NCBI RefSeq assembly: GCF_963675165.1
Contig: NC_087381.1
Span: 4,279,378 to 4,343,377, forward strand
From: Halichondria panicea
Lineage: Eukaryota > Porifera > Demospongiae > Suberitida > Halichondriidae
Direction of reading: 5' to 3'
DNA length: 64,000 nucleotides
Shown: positions 22,446-61,100 of the stretch, piece by piece
Layout of the letters: every line of letters starts with the position of its first letter
How positions within the stretch are numbered: the stretch's first letter is position 1
Notes under the pieces: generated by a model
The model's input: only the letters and a program-made list of their open reading frames with translations
What the model was told of the DNA's origin: nothing
Databases searched by the model: none
Position numbers and translations under genes: made by a program

Positions 22446-25907
<3,462 letters not shown>

Positions 25908-35644: not shown

Positions 35645-35877
35645 TTTGACACTACAGGAGATTTTTATAGAGTCTGTTTCTCAATATAATTTTTCTTCAG
35701 AAGCTTGTCAGCAGGCACTAGCGCTAGGCCGGCCGGCTCAACATGAACAATCTTGAAATAAAAGCAGCAGAGATTTTATGGAGCAAAAAATGACCCACCC
35801 ACTTCTGACACTGTCACATGACTGAGCTTAACCACGTGGGGGAAGGGCTGAGGTTATGCAAGCTAGTAAACAAAATA
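35645..35877. promoter_or_regulatory. Putative bidirectional promoter between COMMD4 and the first TSPO gene
   Basis: Only 233 bp separate the COMMD4 start codon (minus) from the preferred TSPO start (plus). No other room exists for either promoter. I see no clear TATA box and no CpG enrichment that I can measure by eye. Confidence 0.5.
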
Positions 35878-37248
35878 ATGTCTTTTCTAGTCAATCTTTT
35901 TGACCGTTTTCTGCCTGTCTCTCCAGAGCAGTACCTTCCAGCAGCTATCATAATCCTGTTACCAAACATTGGAGCAGGTGTGATAGGTATTTTCTGTTTG
36001 GATGGCATTCGAAATTGGTCGCGAACATTGAGGAAACCCTCATTTGGACCACCCTCATGGCTGTTTAGTCCAGCGTGGTTTAGCATCTATATTTGTATGG
36101 GTCTATCTTCATATCTAGTGTACAAGGAGGGAGGCCAAGTGCTCCCGCTGACTGTGTACGGGCTGCAGCTATCCCTCAATATGATCTGGTGTCCGCTGTT
36201 CTTCTACTTTCATCGAATTGATTTGGTGAGTTCATGCAATACAATAGCTCAGGTGTGCGTGTACTACTGCATATGGAATTGTACTAGAGTGCCACCTCTA
36301 TCACGGACACTTCCTATTATCGGACACTGTCCGAACGCTGTCCAGACTTTAGCAAAATGAATGAAGTAGAGCTACTGTACTGAACACCTATCTATTGCCT
36401 GATATTTTTGCGTGAACACACCCACAAGGGGTTCTGCACATGCGTGTAATGTTACATTGAAGATTATGTCCGGTAATTAGTAGGTGTGGTTTTACATAGT
36501 CTGAACAACTTTGACCGGACACGATAATTGAGTGTCCGGTAGACTTGCTTCTACATGTACTTGACACTGATCCAAAACGAAAGAGAGACAAGCAATTCTA
36601 CTTGCTTTCTATGCCAAGCAAGGTACATAGATCCTATCTCATAGCCGTTTGCTTTGTGAAAGCTTATACAACAGGAGCGGTTTACCTTCAAAGTTTTCAT
36701 GTCCGGTTAGAGGAAGCACTCTATAAGGCGGCAGATTAATTTTCAAATTGCATCATTTGGCCTGTACAATTAGATTAAAGGTACAGTGTTTGGGCGACTT
36801 AGTAGATTTTTGCGGTCATAATTATTTTGATTTCAGATAAATTATTAGCCACTAAAATACCGGAGTGCTAAAATTTGTTGCATGATACTAAATTATAAAC
36901 GCTCTTTGCGAGTAGCTGCATTAGCATAGTTTTCACCAGATTATAATCAAGGAGCGTTTAATCGAGGACATAATTTCAAATAAAAATTGGCCAAAGCGCA
37001 TATTTTGATCGTACTACAATAGATACAATTTCATGGATAATAACTCTATATCCCCACAGGCTTTCTATGACATTGTGACTCTGTGGTGCAGCATTGCTGC
37101 AACGATGGTCGTGTTCTACCCCGTCAACTACGCCTCCACCCTTTTACTGCTACCTCACTTCTGTTGGATCTCGTTTGCTTCGTGCCTCAACCTAGCTACG
37201 TGGAGACTCAACGGATCACGGGGAGAGAAGGCAATAAAGATGGAGTAA
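35878..37248 (+). CDS. TSPO: Translocator protein TSPO, copy 1
   Basis: Two exons, 35878-36225 and 37060-37248, phase 0 join, 178 residues (family usual about 170). TSPO is a five-helix mitochondrial outer-membrane protein binding porphyrins and sterols. Seen in order: YLPAAIIILLPNIG (helix 1), KPSFGPPSWLFSPAWFSIYI (the conserved PPxW-x-F-x-P-x-W block), SSYLVYKEGG, LNMIWCPLFF, then exon 2 ALWC-like helix 4 and LLLLPHFCWISFASCLN, the conserved P-x-x-x-W-x-x-(F/Y)-A motif. I chose the ATG at 35878 because the paralogues start at the matching point; an in-frame ATG at 35818 would add 20 residues. It is the most diverged of the three copies. Intron 1 holds a small inverted-repeat element. Confidence 0.92.
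36306..36540. repeat. Inverted-repeat element in TSPO copy 1 intron
   Basis: cggacacttcctattatcgg and gacacgataattgagtgtcc are inverted partners, with extra ggacac motifs. Noncoding. The rest of the intron to 37059 shows nothing I recognise. Confidence 0.55.
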
Positions 37249-38563
37249 ATTGGAGAATACACAGTTTTGAAGTCTCATGCCGTGGATCGACTCATTAGCC
37301 GAGGCTACTCCACTCGTACTCGAGACTATAAATTATAGTCTCGAGTTATACGTATAATTATAGTATAATTATAACATTTCTGATTTGATCTAGATTTGAT
37401 CAACAAATGTTGCTTATGCATGGAGACACTGTGCTTTGCAATTAAGGACATATAAAAAGATAAGATATCTAGTACACTGATCTATATATAGATGGGGGTG
37501 GGGCTCCAGTTGCAAAATGAGCTCAAAGTGCAGCTGGCTATTATCTCTTTCCTTGGCAATCTGTTGTAGAAATTACAACAATGGGTAAGGAATCGTTATG
37601 ATGAATTAGATGAAGTTGTATGTGAGCTCCTCCCTGACAAACAAACTGTAGTCTAGGTAACCGCCTTATCAGTCAAGTAGGCTAAAAATCTGTGTCCTTT
37701 GATGTAAGCTTTGATGTCTCTTTGTGCATATGTAGTTATAAAAAAAAAAAAAAAAAAAAAAGAAACCTTTGACTAGCTAGGAAGAGTAGCAGCAGTAGGC
37801 AGCAGTAGTAGTAGCAGTGCAAGCAGGACTAGACTAGATTAAAAAGTTGGTGGAAAGAATAACTGACCGTTTGGACGTCACCTGGCTGCCAGACTTTCAT
37901 CTGGACTCTTCCCCCTGAGTAGCTGGCCTTTCTCTAAGCCACAAAACTGAGCAAGAAGCTGAAGAAGCAGCTAGACAGAGACATGTACCTAGCCTTGAGA
38001 ATTGGGAGGCGTGGCTCAACTAGTTAGCCCAGCCCAGAGGAATTGTTACCGTGGGTACTGAACAACCGTAGAAGTAGGGCTACCCCTGGCTTTACTGAAT
38101 TAACTAGCTGTGTCTGCTGTCTAGTTGGACCAGATTTAGCTAGATAATGGGGTAGAGAATAGTTGAGCGGTGCTGTGTGTAGCTTGAACTGTACTGGCTG
38201 GCAAGAATCTAGTAAGCACCCTATGCACTGATAACTCGTCAGAATGGAGGGTATGTTCTAGGGATCTGGACAGCTGTACATCCAAAGGAGCCAGGGAGTG
38301 CCAATCATCTTCTCCCAGTCTCTGACACGCTAAACAAAAGGAGCTAGAACTGGGAGTCCCAGCTAGAATTGCTAGCCGGATCTAGACTAATAGAATGACT
38401 TGGAGGCGTGGTGAGGCCGGATCCACACTAATTGATCGACCTAAAGACGCTCCTGTTCCAGATTTCACGAATGGCAAGGAAAGGGTTATAGCTCGACAAA
38501 GTCCAGCTAGCTAGCTGAGATAGGTTGCAACTAGAGTTTGAGTACCGTTGAAACATTTACAAG
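37249..38563. other. Intergenic between TSPO copies 1 and 2, no gene seen
   Basis: Contains a palindrome at about 37313-37345 (tactcgagactataaatta and its inverse), a 21-base poly(A) run at 37741-37761 that could be a retroposon tail, and AGCAGTAG-type repeats near 37787-37830. No coding sequence supported. Confidence 0.5.
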
Positions 38564-39476
38564 ATGTCTTCCCTGATGACTTCCATCCAGCAATACCTGC
38601 CTGCAGCAGCCATTATCCTGTTGCCCAATCTAGGAGGTGTGCTAGGTGGTCTGCTAACAAAAGATGCAATTAGAAAGTGGTACACTAAACTAAAGATGCC
38701 AGCTCTTGCCCCTCCTAATTGGGTGTTTGGACCTGTTTGGACCTCCATCTATGCCTGCATGGGAGTGTCCTCTTATTTGATCTTCAAGGATGGAGGATTT
38801 GCTGCTCAAGCACTTCCATTGAGTGTATTTGGGGCTCAGCTTTTACTTAACTGGATTTGGAGCCCTATTTTTTTCGGTTGGCATCGGATTGATTTGGTAA
38901 ATATCAGATCTACATAGCTATATTCGTGTGTTCTATGTACAATCTAGCCACCGGCCGTCCCAGTGAGTCTTCTCACAACAGTAGCTCAGGCTCCCCCTTA
39001 CATTTTCCATAACATGTATAAATGTACCATAGTGGTCATGTGAAGCCTCTCAGTGTGTGATCCTATTAAAGGCTTAGCTTGTCACTGTTGTCAGCTTCAA
39101 ACCATTGATAATTATGTAATAATAAGAGTTCATTAGCAACTACATGTATAGCATGTGATTGTTAGCAAATGTTAGATAACTGGAATGTACCACAGTCAGA
39201 TATTATAGCTTACACATGCACACAATATTATTATTAATTTTACAGCACTGTGTTATCATGTACTAACATAATTATTGAATGCAGGCTCTGGTGGACATTG
39301 TTGCCCTGTGGGGCAGTATAGTGGCCACCATGGTGGTGTTCCACCCCATCAACCCCACAGCTGCACTGCTCCTTCTACCACATTTGGGATGGGTGTCATT
39401 CGCTACCTACCTTAACTTCGATTTCTGGAGACTGAATGGAAGAGGAGATCAAGCAATCAAAGACAAAGACCAGTGA
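38564..39476 (+). CDS. TSPO: Translocator protein TSPO, copy 2
   Basis: Two exons, 38564-38896 and 39285-39476, phase 0 join, 174 residues. Starts MSSLMTSIQQYLPAAAIILL; the PPNWVFGPVWTSIYACMGV block, SSYLIFKDGG, LNWIWSPIFF and exon 2 LLLLPHLGWVSFATYLNFDFWRLNG are all present, giving the five-helix TSPO pattern. Same intron position as copies 1 and 3. Exon 2 is almost identical to that of copy 3, while exon 1 is clearly diverged. Likely functional. Confidence 0.95.
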
Positions 39477-39714
39477 ACGTTGATCATGAATAACTTATAA
39501 AGCAAGGCGTAACTAGATCTAGATCTGGATTTTTGCTGTTAATCTATAGAATCTAAATCTAGCAGCACCTATATACCATGTAGATCTACTCAGTAACTCT
39601 CTCTACAATGTATATAAAATTATTTATGCACTCTCACAATATGCAATGTGGTTATTTTGCCAGCCCCACCCTCTTTCCAAGCCACGTTGGTATTATAGAA
39701 AAGCCAAAAAGAAG

Positions 39715-40393
39715 ATGTCTTCTCTGATCACCTCTTTCCAGCACTACCTACCAGCAGTAGGCATTATTCTCCTGCCTAATATAGGAGGCTTACTTAGTGG
39801 AATGATCTCGAGAGACAGAGTGTGGTATAAGAGTCTAAAAAAACCTGCTCTTGCTCCCCCCAGCTGGGTAGTTCCGCCAGTGTGGACCTCCATCTATGCC
39901 TGCATAGGAGTATCCTCCTATTTGATTTTCAAGGAGGGAGGACTTGCAGCTCAAGCGGTACCGCTTTCTGTGTTTGGGGCTCAGATTATGCTCAACTGGA
40001 TTTGGAGCCCCACATTCTTCAGATTTCATCGGCTTGATTTGGTATTAAACTGAGTTTTTAGTGAGTTAGTCTAGATCTCTAACTGATTCATTATGTGTTT
40101 TACGCACTTTGATTTCCAAGCTAGCTTTGGAATGACTTTTCCCCTGATATGGAGGGTATCGTGATAGATCTACTCCTACTACTTTTTTTTACTACACACT
40201 GCAGGCTCTGGTGGACATTGTTGCCCTGTGGGGCAGTATAGTGGCCACCATGGTGGTGTTCCACCCCGTCAACCCCACAGCTGCACTGCTCCTTCTACCA
40301 CATTTGGGATGGGTGTCATTTGCTACCTACATTAATTTCGAGTACCTAAGGCTGAATGGAAAACGGCCGAAAGCCAGCAACAAGAACCAATAA
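39715..40393 (+). CDS. TSPO: Translocator protein TSPO, copy 3
   Basis: Two exons, 39715-40041 and 40205-40393, phase 0 join, 171 residues. Starts MSSLITSFQHYLPAVGIILL (ATG at 39715 chosen by match to copy 2; an upstream in-frame ATG at 39646 exists). PPSWVVPPVWTSIYACIGV, SSYLIFKEGG, LNWIWSPTFF and LLLLPHLGWVSFATYINFEYLRLNG are intact. Only 238 bp separate it from copy 2, and the intron is 163 bp. A strong hairpin with AATAAA in its loop follows the stop. Confidence 0.95.
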
Positions 40394-40770: not shown

Positions 40771-43118
40771 ATGACAAGCTACATGAATTTGCTAGGTTTG
40801 CTTCTGTGTTTGGTGATGACTCCTCTCTCCACTGGCCAAAGTAAGTGCCTTGCTCATGGCCATGTACAGTGACCATTGTATTATCTAGATCTATACTGAT
40901 TTAAAATGACTTAGATTTTCTAAATCTCGTAGTAGAAAGGTATATACTTATGTCACATTATAATACTAAAATTTACTGTTTACTATCAACAGTTAAAACT
41001 ATTATAATTTATTATGGGAGTGATAGCATCCATGCATGCAGTTCATGATTACATATGTAAGGCCTGCTTGACACTGCCAGTACTGTTCTCATGCATGCAG
41101 CCATTCATTATATCTGGCCTCGAGTGGGTAGCTTGACAGGAGGTACTAAAGTCACCGTGTACGGTAGTGGGTTCAGCACAGATGCTTACAACTCTGTCAA
41201 CCTCATCTACATCGGAAACATACCGTGCTCTGTTATATCGTGAGCTTATATAATTATAATGGGATGTACAGTACAATCTATAGTGTGCTAAAATTCAGTA
41301 ACCCATTTTTGTCTAGTAAATAATTTATTGCTGTGCTTATAACAATAATTATTATACGCTGCCCTCCCGTTATTCAACAGAAAAAGTTAATTAATCAGCG
41401 ATTTTATGCACAGCCTATAATTATGTATTGTGTGCATGAATTTTTACACTGTGCAGCTACACAGTAAGTGCGAATGTGCTCGAATGTGTAACAGAGCCGT
41501 ACCCAGGAGGGGTGGAGGGGAAAACTTACTCTGCCCTCCAGTCAACCCTGATCACTCGAGGTCAGCACTACATATCCACTGGTAGCAACGATGCGTTCAC
41601 CTACCATTGGAGCTATACCCCTCAGGCAAGTAAAACAGTTTTCTCATGGCCAAGAATACTGCCAGAGTTAATTTCATAGCTATATGTGCTGCTAATACAC
41701 GAAACCCATTTATTTTGGTCAGTGAAAACGTCCACTTAATTGTTATTATAATGCAATTCTTATATACTCGTGTTGAACTGCTGTGCATTCATGTATGCAC
41801 AGCTCTGGAAAGTGGAGCCCAACTCTGGGCCAGTGGGTACCGTAGTGGAGATTGGTGGATATCGGTTCACCTGGAATTACAACTCTTACGGCCAAATTTA
41901 CATTGGGGACCAAGTTTGCGATCTACGTGACTCGGATAATGCCCAATATGGAATTCGTTCTCTATGGGGACTGATTTACGTCAAATGTCTGACCACTGAA
42001 GTGAGAGCTGGTGGTTGGAATGGAAGCACCACTATCTCCGGGGCCAGTGGTAAAACTTGGAACCACAGTCGGGCACTCTATCCAATGTTCGATTGGACGC
42101 TGGGCATGTACGAGCTGTTTCCTGGTGGGTGGAGATCTATAATTTTAGTGTTCATGGCATCTATAAAGTTGCGACTTAACTTTATTAAAGCGTTACTCAT
42201 TCGTATTTGCTGTTCAGTTATATACCCTATATGCACGGGTCCCTATAGCTTCCACAATTTGGTCGCAAGTATATACCCTGTTTTCTTTATCCATGGCAGA
42301 CATCCACAATGTGTACCCTCAGGTGGGTAGCCCCTCAGGGGGTTCCCTGCTCACAATATTAGGGTCAGGATTTGCTGGAGAGGAGGGCGAGATCGAAGTG
42401 GACATTGATGGAATACCCTGTCAGGTATAAATGCAAAACAGTGGCGGATCCAGAGGGGGTTCTTTGGGTTCAATTGAACCCCCCTTTGAGAAAGAAATGA
42501 GTGGGAGGCTCAAGCAACTAGTTAGCAAGTTGTTCCTTTCTTACTAGCTTTCACATGCACTTCTCAGTCCTTGTTAGTCCTGCAAAGCTTTGTCTGTGCA
42601 GTTTCAGTGACTATGAAGGCTAAAAACTCTCCAGCATAGTGCATGCAGATTGCTTATCAAAAGTGAATTCGGTGTGTTAATGCGCATGCTCACTGTTTCG
42701 AAGAAGTGACGACCTTTTTTTTAGGTAAAATAACAGTCCTTGGCCCGCTCAGAGCACTGGAACCCCCCTTTCAAGAATCCTAGATCCGCCACTGCAAAAT
42801 GGCTCTGTCATGGTGTTGGGCCACCATTTATAATTGACAATTGGCTGGCTATAATGAATCCCTATACCCTAAAAAATGTGGCTCTCTTAGCATAATTATC
42901 AGGTTCCATGCATGCATGTACTGTATATTGTGATAGTGCCATAAATTTGAATGTTCGCATTACCAATTTTCTACATCATGTCCTTCAACCCCTTTAGGTG
43001 GTAAGCCACACCTCCACAATGATTCAGTGCTGGACGGGCAGCCCACCCCCTGACTCCCCTGTCATTGCTGATAGCAACAGGGAGTACGCTAGGGTTGAGG
43101 CTGGATACAGGTTTAAAG
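40771..43118 (+). other. PKHD1L1-like exons 1-6: signal peptide and first IPT domains
   Basis: Exons 40771-40840, 41101-41239, 41457-41625, 41803-42124, 42300-42424, 42998-43118. IPT openings: WPRVGSLTGGTKVTVYGSGF, VEPNSGPVGTVVEIGGYRF, and VYPQVGSPSGGSLLTILGSGF, each followed by a Cys-containing strand. Exon 3 ends CAG before gcaagt, an apparent GC donor joined in phase 0 to exon 4. Confidence 0.85.
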
Positions 43119-46100
43119 GTGAGTAGAGAATTTACTTGCTAAACAATACATTTCTGCATTTCATTAGTACAGTCTTACTATTGTATAATACCGTAGCAGG
43201 AATTTTGAAGGAATTATAACACAGTGTGTATATAATTATAAGAAAGCTGTGTGCATGCATGCCGCACAATTGTTATCACTGAACCAAGATATAGGATCAA
43301 TCGTTGACTTATAGCGTACCATATAGCGGCGGGTTAGTCTGGGGGCCAGACCTTTTCTCAAGAGGGGGGAGGGGGAAGAGAGAAAGAGATCTGGAGACTC
43401 TTGCAGCACTTCCGTGTGGTCTTGGAATGTCAATAGGGAGGAGACTGGGATATTGGAGGTTATAAAGAAGGAGTAGATGTAGCAATACTCTCATTTCATT
43501 GGCTGTATCCAAATTCCATTGGCTGTAATCCAAATTCCACAGAGGCAATACTCGCATTTCATTGGGTTAAAAATCACATGACATAGGATATGCATTTCAT
43601 TGGCTCTGGCCACATTCCGCTAGAGCACACGGAAATGCTGCAAGAGTCTCCAGACCTAATCCTAGCTCTTTCGATTTTGCCCCCGAGCTATTAAGTCTGG
43701 CCCCCAGACTAATAGCGGGTATATTTTGAGGTATAAAAATGTTCGCGGTTTTTGTAGATTAAGCATGTACTGCAAACATTTATACCCACCAATTTAATAT
43801 CGTATGTATGCATGCATGGCTGTATGGCTGTTATTATGCGAAAATTAAAAATCTGCGAAAACTTTTCTATAGCGGTCCTTCCACGAAAGTTTATACCATC
43901 AAAATGTATTCACTATATACATGTAGTATGCGTAATGTGATGGATTATTGCTGTGTGTTTTGACAGGCATAATTTGTGAATTTTGTTTCTAACTCTGCTT
44001 AGGTTCTCGTGGTGTTAGAGTAAACCAGTACCGAAGCATAAGAGGAGGGTCCATTTCAAATCTCCATTCTAGCAACAAGTATCCCGATCAACCAGACGCA
44101 GTGTACAGTCTACCTTCATTCAGCACTGGATCCGATATGACGAGGTAAGTGAAAGCAGGTTTTACTGTGGCAATCAATACAATAAAATCTGTAAGAATAA
44201 TTTAGCAGTCACAGAGCTTGAAGCCACGATCGATGCATATTATAATGTACCACTATAGAGAAATAAATAATGCAATACGTACAATTATAGTTACTATGTA
44301 ATAATTGTTTTAAATTAGCAGATCAATTTCTAGTTCCCTAAAAACTTTGATGGGGAAATGTGCGTAAGTCATATGATTTTTTCATGCGGAAATAAATACA
44401 ATACTTGCAGTGCCCCTCCGAGGTTGCTGTATCACTGATAGCAGTGGCATAGACATATAAGGGAGCTGACAGGGCTAGAGCCCCCCCCCTTATCATAAAC
44501 TCCCAACTCAGCTTGAATCATTGTGATCTGTGCATGTATAGTGTCATGCAATTGAAAATGTGGCAGGGTTATCTAATGCGCATACTGGTTGCTGAGAACC
44601 TTTTTTTAAAAGATTCAGCACCTTAATTGGTCCGGCTCAACCAATTTGAGCCCTGCCCTTCCAAAAATCCTGGCTACGCCACTGGATCGTACCCTATTTA
44701 GGTATTAATTTTACTTACGAGATTTAGTGCAAAGGAATTAGTTGTCACCTCATCCGGAAATGCTGCATGCATGCATGCTAATAACAAACCATCTGTGATT
44801 GCGTGAATACATTTAATACAACGTGTGACCTTAGGCATGTATTTCATTTATTATGGTATCACTAACACTGTGCATCTGAATCACTTCATGAATGTACTTA
44901 GATATTGACGTGATAGAATTTGTATAATGAGGTGTTGCGATCGACCTTAGGAATTATGCAATCGTGTTTTACTTGAATCACTGCAACACTTACTAGCTAA
45001 GTATGTTCTTACATTACATGCAGAGGTATAGAACTTGTAAATGAAGCCACGTGCAGATATAATAATACAGACATGCTCACTCTGTTCCTCTACTCCAACA
45101 GACATAATAATTATGGTGAGCGACTGATGGCTTTCTTTAATCCCCACTCCACTGGACGCCATACATTCTATGTCAGCAATGATGATGGGGCCCAGTTGTG
45201 GCTGGGAGATGGGCGCAACCTCACAGCTGCTTATCAGAACAGGTGAGAGCTAGTGTATCTGATTATGCTGCAGTACACTGTGAAAGAGGGCACAGCGGAA
45301 GCAGGTTATTAAGTATTTGATGTTTGGAATTGCGTGTACGTGAAAATCTTCTACTTCTAGTTGTGCATTTACAGTAGTTTTGTGAGTTTTTTTTATGAAT
45401 GTTCACAGTTCATTTCCCATGAGTACATCCCACACACACAGCTTACTGGAGAGTCCGCGCGCCACAGGGTTTGAGAATTACGAGCGATGGCCACACCAGA
45501 AGTCAGAGTCCATTTCTCTCACACACGCCCAAGATTACCTGCTCGTGGGGGAATTTAAGGAAGGAGGCGGGGGAGAATACCTCACAGTGAGTGCACAGTG
45601 GATTTATAAGATCATCCTATATAGTGCCAGCAGTCTCTAACATATAGAGACTTAAGGGGGGCCCATAATCACAATTGACCATGCAAAAAAGGGATCGAGT
45701 ACTTTCTAATCTGAAATTCCGATAATTATCCTTCGCAATGTGCTGCCATAATTATATACAGCCTGTGTAATAATTAAGACAATGACCATATGCACTGATT
45801 TCAGAACCTTAATCGTCAACCATACAGGTTGGTGCATTGCTACATGATGACACATCATACGACTATAGTCAGACCAGGCAAGCCGTGAGAGAGCAGCAAG
45901 AGATCACACTCACCTCAGCCGGCCTCTACGACACTCAGACACTGACCCTGGCCATCAACAGGAGTGTAGTGGTCGAGGATGCTCTTCCTCGTTTAGTACT
46001 AGAGTGGGGAGGACGCAGCACCGAACCAATATCACTAGCGGAATTGGAGGAGAACCCAGGTTTGTACACTGCAGTAATGCAAACAAGACGCCGGCCCATA

Positions 46101-49100
46101 AAGTTGCTACGTATTTAGCAGAATGTACTTTGAATAGTCACAAATCAGCTGATTATAACATGTGTAAGTAAAATGTAAATTGATTATGGCGGCAATTAAC
46201 AGATACATATATACTTTTAGATCTGATTTAAGTATTGGAAATGCTTTACTAGATCAATGACAATTTTGCTACTACTACATCATCTGCAGAAGCACTAGGT
46301 GATGCGGTTCTCAGTCTGTTCTCTGGGAAATGTGAGTTTGACTTGCTTCACGGCATCAACTACTACCCTGGTCCCCTGGGGTTTGACTTTGAGGAAGGTG
46401 TGAATTCTGGTGAAGCTTGGAGCTCCTGGAACGGCATCCCCCCACTGATCACAGAGGACGAAGCTTTGTGTGGGCGGCACTCCTTATATGTGAGTGTGTG
46501 TAGGGGGCTCACTTACACTTTTTGTGTATGTTCATGTTAATTTTGTGAGCCTGTGTGTGGGGGGCGTGCACTCCCTTAATTTATAATTATGTGAGCGTTG
46601 TATGGGGAGGAGGGGGGTGGATTTTAATAAGTTTTATAGGCATACGTACTCCTCGTGTATACATATAATTTTACAGGTTGAGGATCACAGAGGTGTGGCC
46701 TTCAATTTAGCGAATGATAACGGGTAAGTTCTATAAAGAGAGTAATTTCACGCATGCAAATTAACGCTTGGTATACCTAAAGTAAATGGGTAGTATGAAT
46801 GAATTCGTATAGTCGTTCTGAATTGTGTTTTCTTTTCTCTCTCACTCACAGTAAAAAAACATCAGATTTCCCTTTCATCTGTCTGGGCTACAAGCTTCCT
46901 CCCGGTCACTCCATGGCGCTGGCCGTTAGTATCAAAGACTATGGGTGGTATAGCATCCCCCTCTCTGGTGAGGACACTGGTCCGTTCCCCTTCCCAATTG
47001 CCGGCTCCTTCTTTGACGAGCTCTACAATGATGACCTACTAATGGATGATGACAAGTGAGTCATGTTAGCTTGCTATGTATACATGCAAAGCGGGAAATT
47101 TTCACTGGTCCAAAATGCTTGCTATTTAGGTAGAGAGCCTTAGAAAATCGTTAGTGTTTTTATTGGTTGTACATGTGATATTCGCGGTTCAATGCCAGGA
47201 AACCACACCCATAAGAACTTTGCATGTAAAATACCGGTGCATGGCCAGTTTTATTTTCGCGACAACTGCGCCTTGAAATTTTGCACCTCACACAAATTTC
47301 TCGTTATACGGTACTCACACTCATACACTACACTCAATAAAAACAAAGCTGACTATGAATATTCTATGCTGACCCTGCAGCTGGCATTACTCTTGCACTG
47401 ATCTTCAATTTATGCTGATTGAGAACCTTCCACTGGAAGAGGACCAGAACCCACCCCGGTTCCATGACATCCTTGGAATAGCAGTGTACACAACTCCTCT
47501 TCCAAGACAGCGTGGTTTTTATGTGGACGAGGTTGCCCTAGCATCTGAGAGAAAGAGTCTCTTCACGGACAGTGTGAGTTTTATAGCTATTGTACAGATT
47601 TCGGCTATTAACGATAACGCAGACAAGAAATTGTTTCGTACTTGTAATTCATAGGTCTCTGCAGTTGTTTTAGATATAAAAAGCTCTATTGAATGATCGG
47701 ATTAGACTAAACCCATCTCATTGTGAATTGCTTCAATCATCTATTCGCTCATGCATACGCACACATTGTAGTACGTGGCTCCAGCACGGCCCAATGGAAG
47801 GTCCCTACACAGTGTACAGACAACAGTTACTGATGACAGTGATGATGACACACTAAGTTTGACCATCAGTATGGAGCTAGTACCTAGTGCGTGTGTGGAT
47901 GACCTGACATTAATCGATGCAACTCTTCAGGAGGGCACAGGTATACATGGTATAATAATAAAATTGTATATATGTTTTACTCATTCTGCAATCCTTATTT
48001 TTATTTTCAGCGTTAGTGTTAAATTGATGCTTGCAAATAATCAATATACCACATTAAAGGTTCATGCACGAGTTTGAATGTACTCTTGTACTAACTCTCA
48101 GCCATTATAAATATATTCGTGCAGTTATAGCGCGCAATTTATTAAGTATAACACAACCAGAAAAAGCAACAGTTGAATATAAAATTATAGCATAGTGTAA
48201 ACGGTATAAGGTCAGCTTTAACTTAAAATGTACATGCATGCTTAAAAAATAAATTGTTGTTAGAACTCCAAAAAATTCATTGCTATAATACTTGGCAGTG
48301 CGTGCATGTAGGAATGCCGGTTAATTAAGTTCACTGGAATATTATGCAGGTGTGATGCAGTTCAGTTTTGAGAGGACCCAATTTGCCAGCTCTCCTCTTG
48401 GAGGCAGTTACACTCTCTCTTATGATGGACAAACCACCCCTGCCCTTCAACATGATGCAACAGAAGAAGAGGTATGTGCGAAGAGAACACAGTGACTTGA
48501 GAGTATAGTACGTACACATGTACTGAATAGCACATTTGAAACTGAATTGTTGCTTTATGAGCTAGTGCCGGTTTGTTATTTAAAGAGAATTACGTAACAA
48601 TGTGTTAAATTTACCTTGTGGCTGTCGTACGTCTGGTATAATATTAATAATTAAGTATTATTATTATAGTCATTAATCACACTTATTAATTCTTCCCGAC
48701 AGATCAAAGCAGCTCTTGAGTCTTTGGATGGAGTGGGTGAGGTCACTGTCACTTACAGTGCTACGCCCCTATCACATGACCTTCTGGGAAGCTTCTGTCC
48801 CGGCCACTCGTACACGGTGCTATTCGAGACTGCTCGTGGTGATCTTCTACTACTAAGCGTGAATGAGGGAGGTATTACCGGAGATGATGCCACTACCAGC
48901 GTCACTGAGGTGAGCATGACTGTTGTATAATAATAGCCCATTGTATGGATCTTCTTTGCTAGACTGATTGCTCTTTTAATACAAACCTCAGTCTATATAA
49001 GTTTTGTGAGCTCTCTGACTTTCTCACATGTGCATGCACTCACGCACACTTGATCATGATCCACGCACATTCTTTATTTTTAGATCAAGACTGGAGGGTT

Positions 49101-52100
49101 GTTCCTGAGGCCTATTCCTGGTCACATGCTACAGACTGTAGAGACAACACCACAGGTATAATTATAAGTGCATATCTAGTGTTATAAAGTATGCACTCTT
49201 TGAATGCAGCAATCAAGCTATAATAAATATTTTGCTGTAGCAGAATTATGGCTCTAAAATAATCATCAATCAGGATGTCTTCCAAATCTAGCTAAATTCA
49301 ATGAATGCTGCATGTGTTTTGTGCTGCAAACTGGGCTAGCTGCTGAGATACTTTGAGTTTGAAACGTCGCATTTAAACTAAAGATGCAGATTAACATCTA
49401 TACATGTAAGTACGTACATATATAACTATTATTTTGGTGTCCCAGGTCCACGTTCGTGTAAGGAGCCAGCTGGCAGCCTGCAGTGGTAACCACCTACTGT
49501 ACGAGGAGGTGTCAACTGAAGACCACTCTGACTATTGCAGCTTCATCTATGCCCCATCATCTACACCCATTATTACCATGATTACCCCAACGTCCGCCCA
49601 ACAAGGCGATGTAATCACAATCACTGGTATAGGATTTTCCGAAAATCCCCAAGAAAATTTCGTATTGTTTGATAACATCAAGTGTCCAGTTACTACAAGT
49701 ACCTCAACAACCATTAGCTGTGTACTAGGAGAAGGTTATGGTGGCACTAAACAGCTTTACCTACATGTGACAAGTGTGGGTGTTGCTGATAGCAACTCTC
49801 ATGGAATATTGTACAATGTAGCGGCTACTTCTGTTGACACGGCAAGTGGTAGTCAAGCAGGTGGTACAATGATTGTCATTTCAGGATCTGGTTATTTCAC
49901 GGACAATTTTGAATTAAGCTCCGCTGAATCATTTAACGAGGAGTACGCCAAAAATCTACAAAGCAGTCGCAATGCTTGCCAACTAGGGAATATAGTTACC
50001 ATCGGTGACAATGCTTGTGAGATAATCAGTTCAACAGCCGAAACAGTTACATGTATAACCCCTGAAGAAACTGGCTCAAGCTCTACCTATGATATTATAG
50101 TTAGTGTTGGTTGCTTGGATGATCCTACAACACACGTGTCCAACACTCTACTAAATGCATTCACCTATGACGTGTCCATAACTCCGTCAGTGACAGCTGT
50201 TAATCCTTCAGAGGGGGTGGTCCACGGTGGAGAGACTGTTGTTATTAGTGGTATTAGATTGGCCGATGACATCTCTACTGTCAGAGTCATGGTAAGTGCT
50301 TTGATGTTTATCTATACTTCAGAAATTTCCAACTGATATATAATTATAATTACTGGCTAGGATACAGTTACTTAATGAGAATAGCAACATGATTGTGTCT
50401 ACGTAAAGTCAGTAATAATTAATGCTTATAATTATTCAAATTTAGCTAGATCATATCACAAAATATTTGGCTATAGAAACATCAAATCCCGGCTAAATAT
50501 TTTATAGGCCCATTTACACTATAGGCCTTTAATTAATCATGGTAGGAATCTGGATTTAAAATTAAACCATTCCGCCGGATTAACGGGGCTTACAGCTACT
50601 TTTTAAAAACTACAATCCTTTTATAATGCAGATTGGTAATGAGGATTGCACGGTAACCATGGCTAGCAGCACTGAGGTAACTTGTCTCACCCCGGCTCAC
50701 GCAAAGGGAGCGTGGCCTGTGGAGATGCTGGTGGAGGGGGTGGGAAAGGCAGTTGGAGATGTCACATTCACTTATACTCTCGATGTTACATCAGTATCTC
50801 ACTGTTCAGGGTGAGGGCCGGAGTAGTAAATTTAAATTCAGTTAGTCTCCACAAATTATTGTTATGAGAAGGCACAATAACCATGCATCATATTTTGGTA
50901 GGAGATACAAAACCATAATACTGACAAAATAATGGCTCATCCTTTATAGAGAAGTTGGCCTAATATTTATAATCCCTTATAGTTAGTTACATGTATAAGA
51001 AATTAACTTTAATTAATTTGGTTACAATTCACCACCCAACGAATTGAGTTATTCTGGGGCATTTAACTATTGATTCACCAATACAGAAATGCCTGAGTTT
51101 GTATTTCTTTCCCCCGTACTCTTGTACAATGTACTACCGTATAGCGTGTAATTTTTGTGGGGCAAAATATTCGTGGTTTTCATGGTTGGAGGTCTGACCA
51201 CGAATATTTTACCCACGAATTAAGCGACCTTGCCTACCTTTACCTGCAGTGCAAGCAGCACCTACGAAAATATTACCCACGAAATATCTCAATATTGCTG
51301 AACCACGAATATTTTGTCCCCCAAAAATTACCCGCTATACGGTATTAGTAACTTCGATGAATTTCACAATAATTTTGACATAAATTTTCTTTTAACTGCA
51401 GCTCTCTATTTGGTGGGCAGGTGCTGAGTATTCAAGGCAGTAGGTTTGGCACTGACTCAAACCAGGTTGCCGTTAGCCTTGGTAACAAAGAATGTGATGT
51501 TACCACGGTGACGGACAATGAAATACTGTGTGTGACAGCACCCACCACACTGACATATGAGATCAACAACAATGCGTGAGTTTACATTCTCGAGTAGGGA
51601 ACCATGCTGGCAATTTTATTAGCTTATTTGCCGAATTAAATTCAGAAATTAACAACATTTTTACTTTGAAAATAAAGTACGCAAAGCATTTATCTTCTAA
51701 TAAATAATTGTAGATACGTGTATGCACTCAATGCCAATATGCAGCTACTGGCCTAGCTGCAACACTTAAATCAAGCTGCTGATCGACCAGTTTATAACTG
51801 TATCAGTGTATGCATGCATAGCATTTGCTAATCCACTTCCCCCACACACAATGCAAACCTGATAGTGAGCACCCTGAGTACGGTCTTGGCTATCAATGGA
51901 ATCCAAGCACGCTCACTATCCACCCTGGAGACACTGTGAACTGGTCCTGGACTGGATCTTCTTTTACGGCCAGAAGGGGAGTGGCTCAAGTCAATCGTTG
52001 TGGTGATACAGAATACAATGGTGTGGGATTCAGATCGGAAAGAAGTGTGACTGGAAGTTTTAGGAAAACTTTCACTAAGGCTGGAGCATATTACTACATA

Positions 52101-55100
52101 GCCGAGGGTTATGGGCACATAGGTAAGATCTGTTCAGTTGCTATAATTAATTTTTGTAGAAGTGTAGCTGAGAGAAGAGAGAGATAAAAAGCGTTTGTAC
52201 TGTATCTTTATGTGCATGGCCTGATGTTGGTATTCTCAGTATAAATTACACATTTCAATTGGTACTTTGTTGCTTGCCGTCCTATTAATGTGGCTGACAA
52301 AAATGATTGCACGAAACTTTATATATCTTCGATCTCTCTGACAGGTTTCAATGGCACAATTGTCGTAGCCGAACCTGAGGACATGGCAGTCTCCCTCTCT
52401 CTCACCATCAACTCTATCCTCATTGACCTCTCCTCCTTCCCGCCAACTTGCCAACAAACATCGTCACCCTTCACTGACTACACCTACTCATCGATCTCAA
52501 CACCTAGCATTGTGTCTGTTTTCCCCTCTAAAGCAAGCCCTGGCGATTCCATTGAGTTGTCAATCTCAGGATTATCTGATATGGCAGACGACAACATACT
52601 TGTATTTGGAGGGAATACACCAATTGCTTGCACTTCTCACAATCCAGCCACTGTATCGACTTCATACAGCACACCTACAACCTCCAGTACTTCAACTGGG
52701 GTTACATACATGGACACAGCCAGTGTAGTACAGTGTACACTACCTGATGATATTCTACCTGGTAATTACAGAACAGTCTTACATGTTGCAGGTAGAGGCT
52801 GGGGCAATGCAGTGCTTGACGACACAACCATTGAAATTACACCAAGAATTGACAGCTCTCCTCAAATCTTAAGTATTTCTCTTCGAGGCGGAGTGCCTAT
52901 AATTTTGCAAACTTCTGGTCTAGTTCCGTCTTCAATAACCAACACTAGAGTGCTTATAGGCAATACACCTTGTATAGTTCAGTCTATATCAAACAGTGGA
53001 GAATTAACTTGCCTAACTCAAGCTGCTGTTGATGATGGATACTCGTCTGTTATCAATCAGAATTCGCCCCTAGGTTACTGGACACTGCAAGCTGATTTAC
53101 CAAGAGGAGAAACTGATGGTGGCTGGTCGTTTAGGAATTGGGGCTCGGTTGGTAGCTTGGCCGATGCTACTCTAGTTGGAGAAGTTCAGACTAGACAAGA
53201 AGGAATTTCTGGTAATGTTGTAACAAATCAAGCAGCTAGTTTCGAGAGCTCACATCTTGTTGTGCCAGCTTTGCAAGAATTTTCGAGGCCTTCTGGTTTT
53301 GCAGCTGAGTTTTGGTTGATGTCTGAGCAGGATACAGAAAACTATCGTATTATAGTCAAATCTTTCAGCTATGAAGATAGTGTAGCCCGAGGGTATGTGG
53401 TTTTGATTAATCGGTGTAACCAGGTTGAGTTTTGGATAGCAACTGGCGAAACATCTGCTCAAAATTCCGGTGACTTCTCCGGCTCTGCTGGCTCTGCAGG
53501 CTCTGCATTTGTCCCTGAATGTGAGGTGATTGACGATGCTTCTGACTGTTCCTCTACTTGTACTGGATTACTCACCATAGCGGACTCTAGTGACCTCCCG
53601 CAAGGTGTATGGCATGTGATTAGAAGCGAGCAATCAGACTGGACGACTTGGGCACATGTTTATTTTGGTTGGACAGTGGCAAACGATCAACGTGAACTTT
53701 ATGATATTTGGAGTGATGAAGATTGCACAATTTATAATTTATGCAGTGGTACGCAGACTCTTTCGGTCAATGGTTACTCTACAACTGTCATTACTAACTT
53801 CCTCCGAGCTAGATACACACCAATTGAGATAGGAGGCAGTGGTGTTATTGATACTGGTATTATTCCACTTAGTGGACATCTGTCTTCATTTGAGGGGGAA
53901 CTTGACGAAATTGCATTTTATTCTAGACCAATTTCGCAAGCTGATATTGATGCTCGTGTGCATTTTGGTACCTCTGAAGAGCAGCCTATATGGATTACAG
54001 TTGAGGGAGTGGATGGAATTGGAAATGGAGCTGTACCGAATGTGAAGTATCCGGAATTTAGAATGGAGTTTGCTAGTGAAATGCAGTTGGATTGGGATAT
54101 TGTTCGGAACGGAGATTATGTGCTGGACTCCTCTACTGCCCTTAGATTCGAATGGACAGGGTAAGATACTTTATGACTTCCAGGACTTAACTTAAGCTGT
54201 AATAATTAAGTGTTATTGTGGTGGCTATGCTTGTCTTAACTTTGTAGATATCATGCATGTGTACAAGAATATTTTGTCTGATTACTTCAATTCAAATACG
54301 TTAGCTTCATATCATTACAATTAGTTTTACTACTGGCGTACTATTCTTTTTCCTACACAGTTTACGTGGTGTTCGTGAAGTGTCTCGTTCCATCTACGAA
54401 TCATGTGACCTTGAGGCCTCTTACGTGCAGCAGTGGACTTCACCCATTAGTGGAGGTCGTAGGTCTGTGTGGCTCTCATCGGGTCAGAACCACTACTTCA
54501 TTGACTCTGTGGTTGGAGGATGTCCAGAGGGAAGGAAACTGAGGGTGAGCTGCTTTGAGATGTAGCATAAATCTCAAAAATATCTCTTAAACTATATAGG
54601 CTCGTGTTGGTGAGGTGCGTACTATACAGTGGAGAGTGGGCAGTTACTCTGACATCACAGTGCCTCAAGGCACTGGACTTCTATTCCAATGGAATGGAGC
54701 GGTCATACACGATCTTGTTGAAATGAAAACGGCCATTCAGTCGGCTGAGGACTGCTCCCTGGGTGTGGCTGATGCGAGGAATGATATTGGACTGGTGAGG
54801 ATTGTGTGGTTGTCTATATTAAATTTCAACTGAACCTATAGCTATTACATTATATAAGCCTAGCTACATTAATTTATCACCTGATAGTGTACATGTCTAT
54901 CACCACGCTGGCCATGCACGATGCATGTACATCCTTTAGGTTTCTCGTGAGTGGGTGAATGAACCGAGCACAAGTGGAGAAGTTGCCATCAGTGACCTCT
55001 CTCTGGGTCTCCACCACTTCATGTGCTCTGTGGGTAGGCACTGTGCATTGGGAATGAGGTTCACTGTCAATGTAGTGCCTGAGGAGGTTCATGATGATAA

Positions 55101-58100
55101 TATTGACAGTCAGGTGCGTTGGAGTATTTTGCATAGGGTAAGGGTACTAAAGGTGTAGGGTAAAATACATGCGTGAAAGCATGCTCACTTTCATATAATA
55201 ATGAGGTGTCCATACAAGAAAAATATAATGATTGCTACTGATAGTAAGGTGCGTCTATGAGGTAACCTGAGGATGGTGGGATATATTCTTCATTGAGTTT
55301 ATTTTCCCTCAATGCAGAATCCTGTTGTTCACACTATCCCGTGGCGAATCCAGGACTATGCTGACTTTACTATGGTGGAGGGGGAGAGCCTTTCTTTTGT
55401 GTGGCATGGGTTCCACTCTCTACATCAGGTACGTATAGGATAGACTACACCTAAGAGTAGAATATGTGTCTATGTAACCTCCGCGGTTGCGGTTAGCCCG
55501 AGGCGCAAAGCCGAGGGAAGCTAACCGTAACCAAGGTGGTTACTAAGACGCATATTCTACGAGTGGGTGTGGTCTATCTAACTTGGACTTCATTGCGCAT
55601 GCGCGAGGCGTGGTTATAAAAAGCCAGGTTTGGTGCGTAGCAACAGAAATTGAATTTGTGCGAGCTGGACGAGCTGGAGAGCTGTGAGAGACACCAGTTG
55701 ACAGAAAAAGACAAGAAGACGGCTTCAAAACAATGAAAAACTACAGTAAAGCTTGTGAAACGCTTCTTGAAGATACTGGAAAGAACAGACAAGTAAAAAG
55801 AACCTAGAACTATGCTAGAACTGACTGCAACACTACAAGAAGAAGAATGAAGCTCTGTGGTGGAGTGGAGGGGGGTATAGAGCAGACTAGACCGGCATGG
55901 AACCTTAAAAAACTCAATAGAAAGTGTCAAGCGACTGCTAAAGTGTTTTTGATGCTTCCTGGCCCCCCTTGCCCATGCCCAACTGGAAAAATCAATACAA
56001 AGCAACAGTGGACATGGAAAAAATGGATATTGACTGAACAAACTATTGCATTCTGTGTTTTTTATAATGTTTTTGTCATCTTCTTGTCACTTTCACTAAA
56101 AATTTCATTCCAACTTTTGAGAACTTCCTGCAAATTATTTGCCACTTCCTGTAGAATATGCGTCCATTTCCTGTAGAATATGTGTCCACTTCCTGTAGAA
56201 TATGCGCCCATTTCCTGTAGAATAAGTACCTTCTTGTAGATTATGCTTCCATGTAATCTACTGTTTTTAGCCAATCAGATCAATTACAGATGATGTAATG
56301 TAGTCTAAAGTGTGTTTCAGTACTCACTATGTATTATGTATACATATATATACATATACATAATTATACATAATACATGTTCAGTATAATCAGTAAATCA
56401 GCTAGGGGTAATGTGCAAGCCAATGTTGTAGAAGAATCATATGATGCTTTACATTATTTTTACTTAGGTCTTACTGGGTGAAATGTGGTGTTCTCTTTAA
56501 GCTCAAATTTATCATAATTATTTCCAGGTGACAGAGACCGTGTTCGAGAGCTGTGTTTTGTCGGACCATCCCCTTCATGTTTGGGGTCTGCCCAGTGTGG
56601 ACAATAGTGTGAGCATCCAGGGGCTGATCCCGGGGGACTACTACTACCTCTGTGCAGTAGCTGGACACTGTGACGCTGGAATGAAGATAAAGGTGTGTGG
56701 GTACATCTATTGAGCATTTTGGGAGTTGCCAGATTTTTCTTTCAAGGAAAGTCTGCATGTGAGATGGTCCTCTCCATAAACGCAACTGAAGGATTGTGAA
56801 TTAGCAATCCATCAAGTATATAAGTCTGCTGTCACAAATTTAAGTGTTCATTATCCATACACCTACGTAGGTGACAGTACTACCAAATGATGGCCTGCTA
56901 GTGTTGAACAATGGTGTGAGTTCAGTGTGTGCTGATGGAGTGAGTTGCTCTCTGGCCTACAGTGTGCAAGCCACTCCTCAACTGGCCTCTGTTGAGGTCA
57001 GTAACTGTTACAAATACGCATACGCATGCAATAATTGTGCATAATTGTTTAGTCAATTAGTTTCCTGAGCATTGCAATAATTGTGCCCTTTTTCCCACTA
57101 GCCTTCTGAGTCTGTTGGTGGGGCCACCCTAACTCTAATTGGAGCTAACCTCCTCCCCCCTAGCACAATAGTTGGCTCCAGTCTGCCTGAATTGAAAGTG
57201 TGGATTGATAATGCACCTTGCACTAACGTTTTAGCCGAATCTGCCAACACTGCCGCTGATCACATGATCTCCTGTAACATCACAGACTATGAATCTGATT
57301 ATTACCATGTCGATGTGTTTGTAAGTGATCATGGATTTGCTTCTGTATCCCCAACTCAACTTGTGCCACGTTCGATTAGAGATTTTGAAATCCCTGCCAA
57401 TTTTAACTCATCCTATCCAAAACTATTTATTGCCGCTGTGGCCTCCACGATAAATCCAACATCAGGCAGTATTCATGGAGGCACCGTTATAACTATCAGT
57501 GGGTCAGGATTTAGTTACATCTCCGAGCGAAACGTTGTATCTCTAGGTGGAGTCTCTTGCCGAATCATAGAAGCGAGTTCAAGTACAATTACCTGTATGA
57601 GTGGACCTGGAAGCTCAAGTGTGGCTGTTAATGGTACTGTGAACGGTTTTCCTATAAGCACTAGTTTGCTGTACGAGTACAACGATGCTTCAACTCCGAT
57701 TGTGACTTCTGTTGAAAGTAGTCCCGATAGTATAAACTCTCTTTCAGGTGGCAATGAAATCACACTTGTTGGAATGATGTTGGGAACTGCTGCTTTGGAC
57801 CTACAAGTGCAAATTATGAATTCTATGGCTGGTTTGGTTGACTTTTCCACCGAGGATGCTTGTTCTGTAACTAACTTCATTGTAGATGGCTCTGACACTG
57901 TCAACGTCTCTTGTACAGCTCCTAGTAAACCTGCTGGCATATACAAACTACTCGTTCACGTACAAGGGTACGGCTTTGCTACTGTAAGTGATAACACAGT
58001 TGAATATGCTCTCGAAATTGACTCTTTCTCTCCGGCATCTGGTGGTCATGGTGGTGGAGTGGCTTTGACAATTGTTGGCAGTGGATTCCCTGAGGCAAGT

Positions 58101-61100
58101 AATTCAGATCAAATCAGTGTCACTCTTTGCGATGGTGAGCCTGCAAGTACATTATGTCTAGTTACTTCGTCTACGCTCAATGAACTCGAGTGCACCCTCG
58201 ATCCCACTTCAACCAGCTCTCCCTTCACAACAAATGCTACGTGCTCTATAACCATCACCTCTGGGGAACATACTGAAATATCCTCTGATCAATTCCAATT
58301 TATCGGCTCACTGACCCCTCGAATTGACTCCATTTCCCCCCTGATAGGGGGTACTGGTGGTGGTACTACAGTAACCGTAGAGGGTGCAGGATTCACTTCT
58401 CAAAATTTGGAACCAATCACAGTCACTATAGACCGTGCCGAGTGCATAATAACTCAATCTACCGATACCTTAATCACTTGTGTGACCGGTAACCATACGA
58501 CAACTTTACAAGCAGAAGTCATAGTCAATGTCCCAGGGAAAGGAAATGCATTGTCAATGGATGGAGTGATTATGTATGAGTACGTTGACGTGTGGTCTAG
58601 TCCGTTCACATGGGGTGGCGGACCTTTGCCGGGAGAGGGGGACTCCGTGTATATTAAGGTTGGACAAACTGTGTTTTTGGACGTGAATACTCCGGTGTTA
58701 AACTTGCTGCTGATTGAAGGGTCACTGATATTCGAGGATGATCAGGATCTTCATCTACAGGCCAACTATATATTCATTAACACTGGAAAGCTACAGGTAA
58801 GGGTGTTTGTACTTGACGTATACACACTTGCATGCCAAACATAAATATACTCTCAGGAATCTGCATCGGTCTGCCAATGCTTTCAAGATTATTATATCAG
58901 CTAGTAGCTAGTTGTATATACATGTTCAAAAGTATATCAAAATGTACTCCAGAGCTATAATACATATTCTATTCCCTTCAGGTCGGTACTGAGTCCTCTC
59001 CGTTCACTCACATAGCTGTCATTACCCTCCACGGCTCTGTGCAAGATCCAGAGATACCTATCTACGGTGCAAAGGTCAGGCTAGGTATATCAACTTGCAT
59101 TTTTTCAGTTGCCCAATACTGGTACCAAATTAAATTTACATACATAAGCTGCTCTTGCATGCATCTGGCCTATACAATTATTTGGTTGTTCGGAACATTA
59201 ATGTGTACACTTGTTGTTGTGCATGCATGCATCAAGCTTTTCTCTTGAACTAGGTACTGGGTATTCGTCAAGGAGAATTGGACCTTCATGGTCTCCCTAG
59301 GGCAGTCACATGGACACGACTTTCTCAGAGTGCCCTGAGCAATGACACTAGCCTCAGGCTTGAGCAAGCTGTGGACTGGGTGACGAGTGACAAAATTGTC
59401 ATTGCACCCACTGGCAAGGACGGAAATGAGACTGAGGTGGGTGGAACAATCCTGTTGAGGTTATCGCAGCTTATTCCTCCTAGTCATAATCAATTCCAAA
59501 CACTGCTTTATTGCTATTCTCGCAGCCTTTTTACTTTCCATATGCTTCTGCTGTGTGAAGGTTTGGCTTAAGATACGCATTATGCATAAATTATAATTAC
59601 AGTCCATTACTATTCTCATTTTGAGCGTCACGTACAGCAATTTGTTGCCCAGTGAGCGGGAAGACCAAAGCATACTTGTACAAAATGTATGTTTTGTCTA
59701 GTATAATAATTATTATGCCAATACAATTGTATACATGTAGTAAGCAATCTTCCATGAACACACACATGCACCTGCAGGAGAATGAGGTGGTCTCAGTGTC
59801 AGGGGATGGTCGAACAGTCAATTTGCTCCACCCACTCCGCTACACCCACCATGGGGTGACTGAGATGTACGAGGGAGGTCACTTCATTGACATTAGGTGA
59901 GGCTGCATGGCTATGTATGCAGTATGTATATACTCATACATACACATATATGGAAAGTTTCGTAAGTGTGAAAGAGTTTTCTCATGATGCATATAATTAT
60001 ATCGCACACTCCAGGGCTGAGGTTGGTCTTCTTTCCCACAATGTGATTGTTCAGGGGTCCCGCCCCCCACCCAGTGTTGACCAGGATGCTGTTGACCCCC
60101 AGTACGGCTCTCAGATATTTGTACATCGAACGGGCACACATCCGACACCAGTCAGGTATACCGTTGTCAGTGTGTAGCTACATACAATAATTACTAGGAT
60201 CTCGTGTTAAATGATTTTCTTTTGAGATTTTTTGCTGGCTGTTTAGTACGTATACATGTGTGTAAAAGGTTTGCATTTGATTACTGTCCGTCTATGCATG
60301 TGTACATTCGTAGTCTATGAATCTCCATGCTGTATAGAATTGCTAGGTATCCCAGCTATAACTCCAACAGGATTGAGCACACCGAGATACGCTATGGTGG
60401 TCAGGCATTCCGGCTGGGTCGTTACGCTGTGCACTTTCACCTCAGTGGAAGCATGGCAGGCTCGTACATACGAAACTGTGCCATTCATCACTCGAATAAC
60501 CGAGCTGTCACGGCTCATGGAGTTCATGACCTCTTGATCGAGGGGAACGTAGCATACGACATAAAGGGACACACCTTCTTTATTGTGAGTAATTTAATTG
60601 TCTTACCCAATTACTGTGAAACCACTTAATACTGTATGTTATGAATGAAAGTACGATGCGTGGGTATACTTGGTGATTCAATCATGTCTTTGAAAAACAA
60701 TTGCTTCTTCATTATTCATCTCTCTAGGAGGACGGCATAGAAACTAACAATAGTTACCTAGGAAACCTGGGTGTCTTGACAAGAGGTTCATCAAGCCTCC
60801 TTAATACAGACCAGATTCCCGCCACCTTCTGGATCACTAATCCTCAGAACACCTTCATTGGTAACGCAGCTGCTGCCTCCAGGGCGTACGGGTTCTGGTG
60901 AGTGTAGGGAACATTTACAGTGACAGGTTTAGAATCATTTATTTGTACACATCGGAATATAACGACTTGTGTCTACTTGAGCGAGCTATATAGTATTATA
61001 ATTATTGTCTTATACTATGGTACAGCACGTAATGATGGTTGTATCTATTAATTGCCATCTGAAGCCAAAGTTAAACCCTCTCCACTCTCCAGGTTTGATT

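Follow-up and report, generated by a model that had tools for sequence, protein, structure and literature searches.

Tandem phytocyanin-type modules with two putative copper sites in a PKHD1L1-type protein of the sponge Halichondria panicea

We analysed a stretch of 64,000 nucleotides from the sponge Halichondria panicea (assembly GCF_963675165.1, contig NC_087381.1, positions 4,279,378 to 4,343,377), here called the window, which contains a many-exon gene for a protein of the PKHD1L1, or fibrocystin-L, type. Within the TIG array of this protein lie three consecutive modules, M1, M2 and M3, which resemble plant phytocyanins, and two of them carry a full set of copper ligands. The initial annotation had placed three homologous modules at 54080..56692; they are indeed found there, the coordinates being slightly short, as M1 extends from about 54075 and M3 to 56891. 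In window positions, the modules are:

54075..54617 (start approximate), forward strand: M1, phytocyanin-type module without copper ligands (Pfam Cu_bind_like E 2e-5, over the cut-off)
54615..55086, forward strand: M2, phytocyanin-type module with the full ligand set (stellacyanin match, E 1.9e-5)
55327..56891, forward strand: M3, phytocyanin-type module with the full ligand set (Cu_bind_like E 7e-8; mavicyanin E 2.1e-8)

Open frames spliced at GT-AG borders can be read from 51870 without a stop until the last frame closes at 58844. The exon joins are predictions from the sequence, picked by eye so as to keep the reading frame:

51870-52122, forward strand: exon, the first of an upstream module, M0
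52345-54160, forward strand: exon that completes M0, carries TIG domains and a laminin-G-3-like stretch, and opens M1 with its first strands
54361-54544, forward strand: exon, GT-AG splicing
54600-54794, forward strand: exon, GT-AG splicing
54940-55113, forward strand: exon, GT-AG splicing
55318-55428, forward strand: exon, GT-AG splicing
56528-56692, forward strand: exon, GT-AG splicing
56871-56996, forward strand: exon, GT-AG splicing, carrying the last strand of M3
57102-58844, forward strand: following open frame, 58844 being the frame end and not a mapped splice donor

M1 to M3 are spread over seven exons from 52345 to 56996, with GT-AG introns and no internal stops, and M3 is interrupted by a 1,099-base intron (55429-56527). 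An intron lies just before the last strand at the same place in M1 (between RKLR and ARV) and in M3 (between MKIK and VTV), and is missing from M2. Every join from 54544/54600 to 56996/57102 is in phase 0. Across 54600-56996 all exon lengths are multiples of three with phase-0 borders, so that skipping one exon, or an entire module, would leave the reading frame intact.

Both profile searches and alignments to solved phytocyanins support the phytocyanin identity proposed for these modules. Pfam Cu_bind_like (PF02298) matched the 353-residue M1-M3 region in three stretches with an E value of 1.3e-17, scoring 64 bits for the region, 25 for M1, 32.8 for M3 and 15.2 for M2 alone (curated cut-off 20.8). 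A sequence search of the PDB with the whole region returned nine rows at E<=1, led by mavicyanin (1e-7), umecyanin (6.6e-5) and stellacyanin (1.1e-4), with a nitrite reductase next (0.0041); M3 alone gave 17 rows, the mavicyanin match among them, and M2 alone gave six rows, its stellacyanin match covering the last quarter. All rows at E<=0.01 were plant phytocyanins or one copper nitrite reductase (4 of 4 for the region, 1 of 1 for M2 and 3 of 3 for M3). Furthermore, the M1-M3 profile aligned with a mavicyanin segment at a probability of 97.7% and an E value of 1.7e-12, the latter holding for that single comparison. M1 and M3 share 22 of 89 gapless aligned residues (25%), and M2 and M3 are identical in 35 of 96 aligned columns, or about one-third, with 13 further columns gapped. 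By sequence, M1 to M3 are phytocyanin-type cupredoxins, and from their homology to solved structures we infer a cupredoxin fold.

Tandem cupredoxins are the building plan of multicopper oxidases and nitrite reductases, and M3 alone also matched a nitrite reductase chain (2dv6) at 4.5e-4, as would be expected if the three modules formed an enzyme of one of these kinds. However, the stronger matches are to single-domain phytocyanins. H-x-H, the type 2/3 ligand motif of multicopper oxidases, occurs in none of M1, M2 and M3; with these usual ligands absent, we rejected the multicopper oxidase reading, and hold such an enzyme, including one of the nitrite reductase kind, to be hardly credible.

Phytocyanins have been described as eight-stranded sandwiches with two disulfide cysteines and four copper ligands, and early nodulin-like proteins (ENODLs) as the kind that does not bind copper (PMC4499708; here and below, papers are cited by PubMed Central number for those parts of them that were available). 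Aligned to mavicyanin, M2 and M3 each hold the whole His/Cys/His/Met set in register, as had been claimed, with codons at 54708, 55024, 55039 and 55054 in M2 and at 55414, 56651, 56666 and 56681 in M3. His, Cys and His fall on their mavicyanin counterparts and the Met of the modules on its axial Gln; Gln is also found in stellacyanin, and the axial Met of M2 and M3 is that of plantacyanin and uclacyanin. The first ligand of M3 is the His of FHSLHQ (codon 55414-55416), three residues before the His of HQV that had been named for it. M1 had been said to have lost His and Met and to have kept Cys; the loss is real and extends to all four ligands, whose places are taken by R (54365), D (54503), G (54518) and R (54533) instead of H, C, H and M, and the Cys that had been counted is a disulfide cysteine. 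With these corrections, the proposed pattern of two intact modules and one dead one agrees with both the profile searches and the alignments to solved phytocyanins. Both disulfide cysteines are present in every module (M1 54404 and 54521, M2 54753 and 55042, M3 56552 and 56669), and a disulfide bond is predicted in each. The modules thus have in common with the plant phytocyanins mavicyanin, umecyanin, cucumber stellacyanin and plantacyanin their homology, the disulfide pair and the C-x4-H-C-x3-M/Q loop.

The ligand signature H-x(11,17)-C-x(15,60)-C-x4-H-C-x3-M was found twice in the region, the match in M3 beginning at the neighbouring His and not at the ligand His. Of 200,000 shuffled versions of the region, 3 contained one or more such matches; the signature is not a chance pattern. 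As M2 and M3 have a common origin, it is more telling to ask whether their key residues have been kept more than other columns. All six (four ligands and two disulfide cysteines) are among the 35 identities, with a hypergeometric chance of 0.0018, or 0.016 for the four ligands alone, values that are suggestive and no proof of selection. M1, at 25% identity to M3, retains none of the four ligands.

The features around the modules, and past the end of the window, support the assignment of the host to the PKHD1L1 type that had been suggested:

41061..51576, forward strand: TIG exons of the presumed upstream part of the gene (TIG found by Pfam at 41061, 42167, 49410, 50584 and 51379)
45001-45243, forward strand: PA14-like exon (Pfam PA14 E 4.2e-4, 20.6 bits against a cut-off of 24)
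within 52345..54160, forward strand: TIG and laminin-G-3-like stretch (TIG E 1.1e-7; Laminin_G_3 E 1.5e-5, 25.6 bits against a cut-off of 27.6)
57102..58844, forward strand: five stretches of TIG and the beginning of the first G8 (Pfam TIG E 6.3e-45, G8 E 9.4e-17)
60321..60626, forward strand: CEMIP-type beta-helix stretch (Pfam CEMIP_beta-hel E 2.2e-25)

A second G8 and beta-helix lie past the window end, where the beta-helix match is at L012:1675-2175; on contig C5, four G8 pieces make up two G8 domains, and a CEMIP/TMEM2-type beta-helix comes after each of them. The exons at 41061..51576, whose joins are unmapped, presumably belong to the same gene as the modules. These matches support a predicted PKHD1L1-type protein with a TIG array, two G8 domains, CEMIP-type beta-helices and a PA14-like exon below the Pfam threshold. 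TIG repeats, two G8 domains and CEMIP/TMEM2-type beta-helices are common to this protein and PKHD1L1, and a PA14 domain is present in PKHD1L1 itself. The mouse protein has been described with IPT repeats, two G8 domains and PbH1 (beta-helix) repeats (PMC6707252), and PA14 is listed for FPC, the sister of PKHD1L1 (PMC13424714). A collagen-like open frame with G-x-y repeats, recognized by eye, lies on the reverse strand at L012:5699-6490, apparently between exons of the fibrocystin-L-like gene.

Upstream of M1 to M3, a fourth cupredoxin module, which the initial annotation did not contain, is recognizable from its profile matches:

51870..52391, forward strand: M0, halocyanin/plastocyanin-like cupredoxin module in exons 51870-52122 and 52345 onward (NCBIfam matches)

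Its best profile matches, which fall far short of the model cut-offs, are to the NCBIfam models for the halocyanin domain (E 1.4e-6) and for plastocyanin (E 1.3e-4), and its sole Pfam match, Copper-bind at 0.025, is also below cut-off. Its ligand positions, assigned by eye, hold R, A, Y and F, so that M0, in spite of these matches, is apparently without copper ligands. M0 as a sibling of M1 to M3 was unsupported: their profile gives it an E value of 4, amid noise. Given this score and the halocyanin and plastocyanin matches, two cupredoxin lineages may share one protein. Vertebrate PKHD1L1, we presume, carries an InterPro cupredoxin entry; should this be so, M0 could be one of the usual domains of the family and M1 to M3 an addition.

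The absence of ligands from M1, and by inspection from M0, means that the protein tolerates copper-free cupredoxin folds. All the modules might then be beta-sandwiches for ligand binding or spacing, like ephrins or ENODLs, the ligands of M2 and M3 being remnants with weak or no copper binding in life. Copper binding has been proposed to have been lost in ephrins (PMC6485061), and plant ENODLs, like M1 as predicted here, have a phytocyanin-type domain unable to bind copper (PMC4499708). Against remnants stands the fact that M2 and M3 retain all six key residues at about one-third identity, where decay as in M1 would be expected, and we consider this alternative rather unlikely. The arrangement that we regard as probable is a PKHD1L1-type extracellular protein with three tandem phytocyanin-type domains within its TIG array and putative copper sites in M2 and M3.

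Several results weigh against the latter arrangement. M2 alone stays below the cut-offs of both Pfam Copper-bind (0.016) and Cu_bind_like (0.022), and no NCBIfam profile matched M2 or M1. M2 has 13 inserted residues relative to M3, eight of them at an exon border set by eye. Unrelated proteins appear among the PDB rows of higher E value, such as fibronectin at 0.09 for M3 and an aminotransferase at 0.69 for M2. The hypergeometric values are suggestive only, because the six columns were picked for their known importance. Finally, a structure prediction for M0 reached a mean predicted local distance difference test (pLDDT) score of 40.8 and was discarded; its input was the uninterrupted frame, in which the last strand, past the intron, is missing and the intron tail is read instead.

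The assembly of the host genome comprises 131 Mb in 39 contigs. A genome-wide Cu_bind_like search scored two candidates and gave one match at E<=0.001, the M1 exon of the window; as this search missed M3, it is not sensitive, and absence elsewhere is weak evidence. M3 and M2 as genome queries found five and three places at E<=1, all within the modules of the window. When 1,642 frames of the window and L010 to L012 were searched with the M1-M3 profile, only six window frames, all with M1 to M3, scored above inclusion. Contig C3, from about 850734 (L010 from 5535, and L011), holds another gene with TIG domains and two G8 domains; in contrast to the many-exon gene of the window, it has 3,138 codons in one uninterrupted open frame, and 3,089 of these were retrieved. 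No phytocyanin module was recognized there by Pfam in 1,455 residues of the frame and two upstream frames (492 and 278). The start of the long frame is faintly cupredoxin-like by eye, but it had no significant match in Pfam or NCBIfam, nor to M0 by phmmer.

The finding of the modules only in the window, together with the description of phytocyanins as plant-specific (PMC4499708), could point to an assembly or contamination artefact. This is very improbable: introns interrupt the modules, the reading frame continues into TIG-bearing exons before and after them, the contig is 7.6 Mb long, and short-pattern scans for a donor confirmed none among 26 and 56 matches in two scans of prokaryote genome contigs or among 14 matches in viral contigs. 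A plasmid search returned three records (E 0.1, 0.1 and 0.5). As these scans used short patterns or one query, the absence of a donor is weak evidence.

Elsewhere in the window, three neighbouring open frames on the forward strand (35809-36360, 38552-38917 and 39550-40053) are mutually alike and TSPO/translocator-like by eye, a possible tandem array. A long CA/GT dinucleotide repeat at 23278-23988 is open in several frames on both strands, and the frames listed in it are unlikely to be genes.

ENODLs are plant proteins, usually with one phytocyanin domain. In contrast to plant phytocyanins, the sponge modules stand in tandem inside a giant PKHD1L1-type protein. Ephrins and the monodomain cupredoxins of sponges are also animal cupredoxin folds, but single-domain ones. 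Monodomain cupredoxins matching the same Pfam models have been reported from sponges, ctenophores and unicellular holozoans, those with copper sites in sponges and ctenophores, in a study that set multidomain proteins aside (PMC6485061), and PMC6993872 names a Cu_bind_like protein of a choanoflagellate. We found nothing on PKHD1L1 together with cupredoxin or plastocyanin in the open-access literature, subscription papers being outside the search; in the available parts of two papers on PKHD1L1, the sole copper passage concerns microscopy grids (PMC6707252, on the mouse protein) and copper is not mentioned (PMC11043200). As far as these searches reach, the combination with intact ligands has not been described, both the domains and the host protein being of known kinds; it may already be visible in domain databases.

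The domain arrangement with two sites predicted to be copper-competent is well supported, and we infer copper binding and an extracellular location. M2 and M3 would each hold one copper ion in a type 1 site of the plantacyanin or uclacyanin kind (His2-Cys-Met), and M1 and the upstream M0 would be copper-free structural or binding domains, like plant ENODL phytocyanins or animal ephrins. Two axial-Met type 1 sites would thus stand in tandem outside the cell, where the adjoining copper-free cupredoxin and TIG domains could form a rod and a contact surface. The most likely role would be that of a copper-binding, electron-shuttling element of the cell surface that acts on small molecules or on partner proteins in the matrix. 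Uclacyanin 1, an extracellular plant phytocyanin required for and localised to Casparian strips, is potentially involved in redox reactions (PMC9434266), and by analogy the sponge modules could supply electrons to matrix chemistry or draw them off. This redox role is the weakest step and appears doubtful; both electron transfer and a link with the beta-helix domains are speculative. The ligands would also fit with the capture, storage or sensing of copper at the cell surface, and the 20 frames scanned, which cover part of the gene, gave no match to an oxidoreductase domain. Phytocyanins are, however, described as electron transporters (PMC4499708), and we regard such a role without electron transfer as improbable.

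PKHD1L1 is a deafness gene (PMC11043200) and the sister of the gene for autosomal recessive polycystic kidney disease (PMC13424714), and copper-competent phytocyanin modules in a relative of it would give the family a testable chemistry. They would also bring into a PKHD1L1-type protein a kind of domain that has been called plant-specific, and a single protein would hold both live and dead cupredoxins, a parallel to the way in which ephrins have been proposed to have arisen. We would give only a small chance to the wider proposal that fibrocystin-L-type proteins of early-branching animals are cuproproteins, in which a pair of blue-copper sites in the ectodomain, next to the CEMIP/TMEM2-type beta-helices, couples copper redox to the recognition of matrix, possibly of a hyaluronan-like polymer, and was lost later as the cupredoxins became ligand-less.

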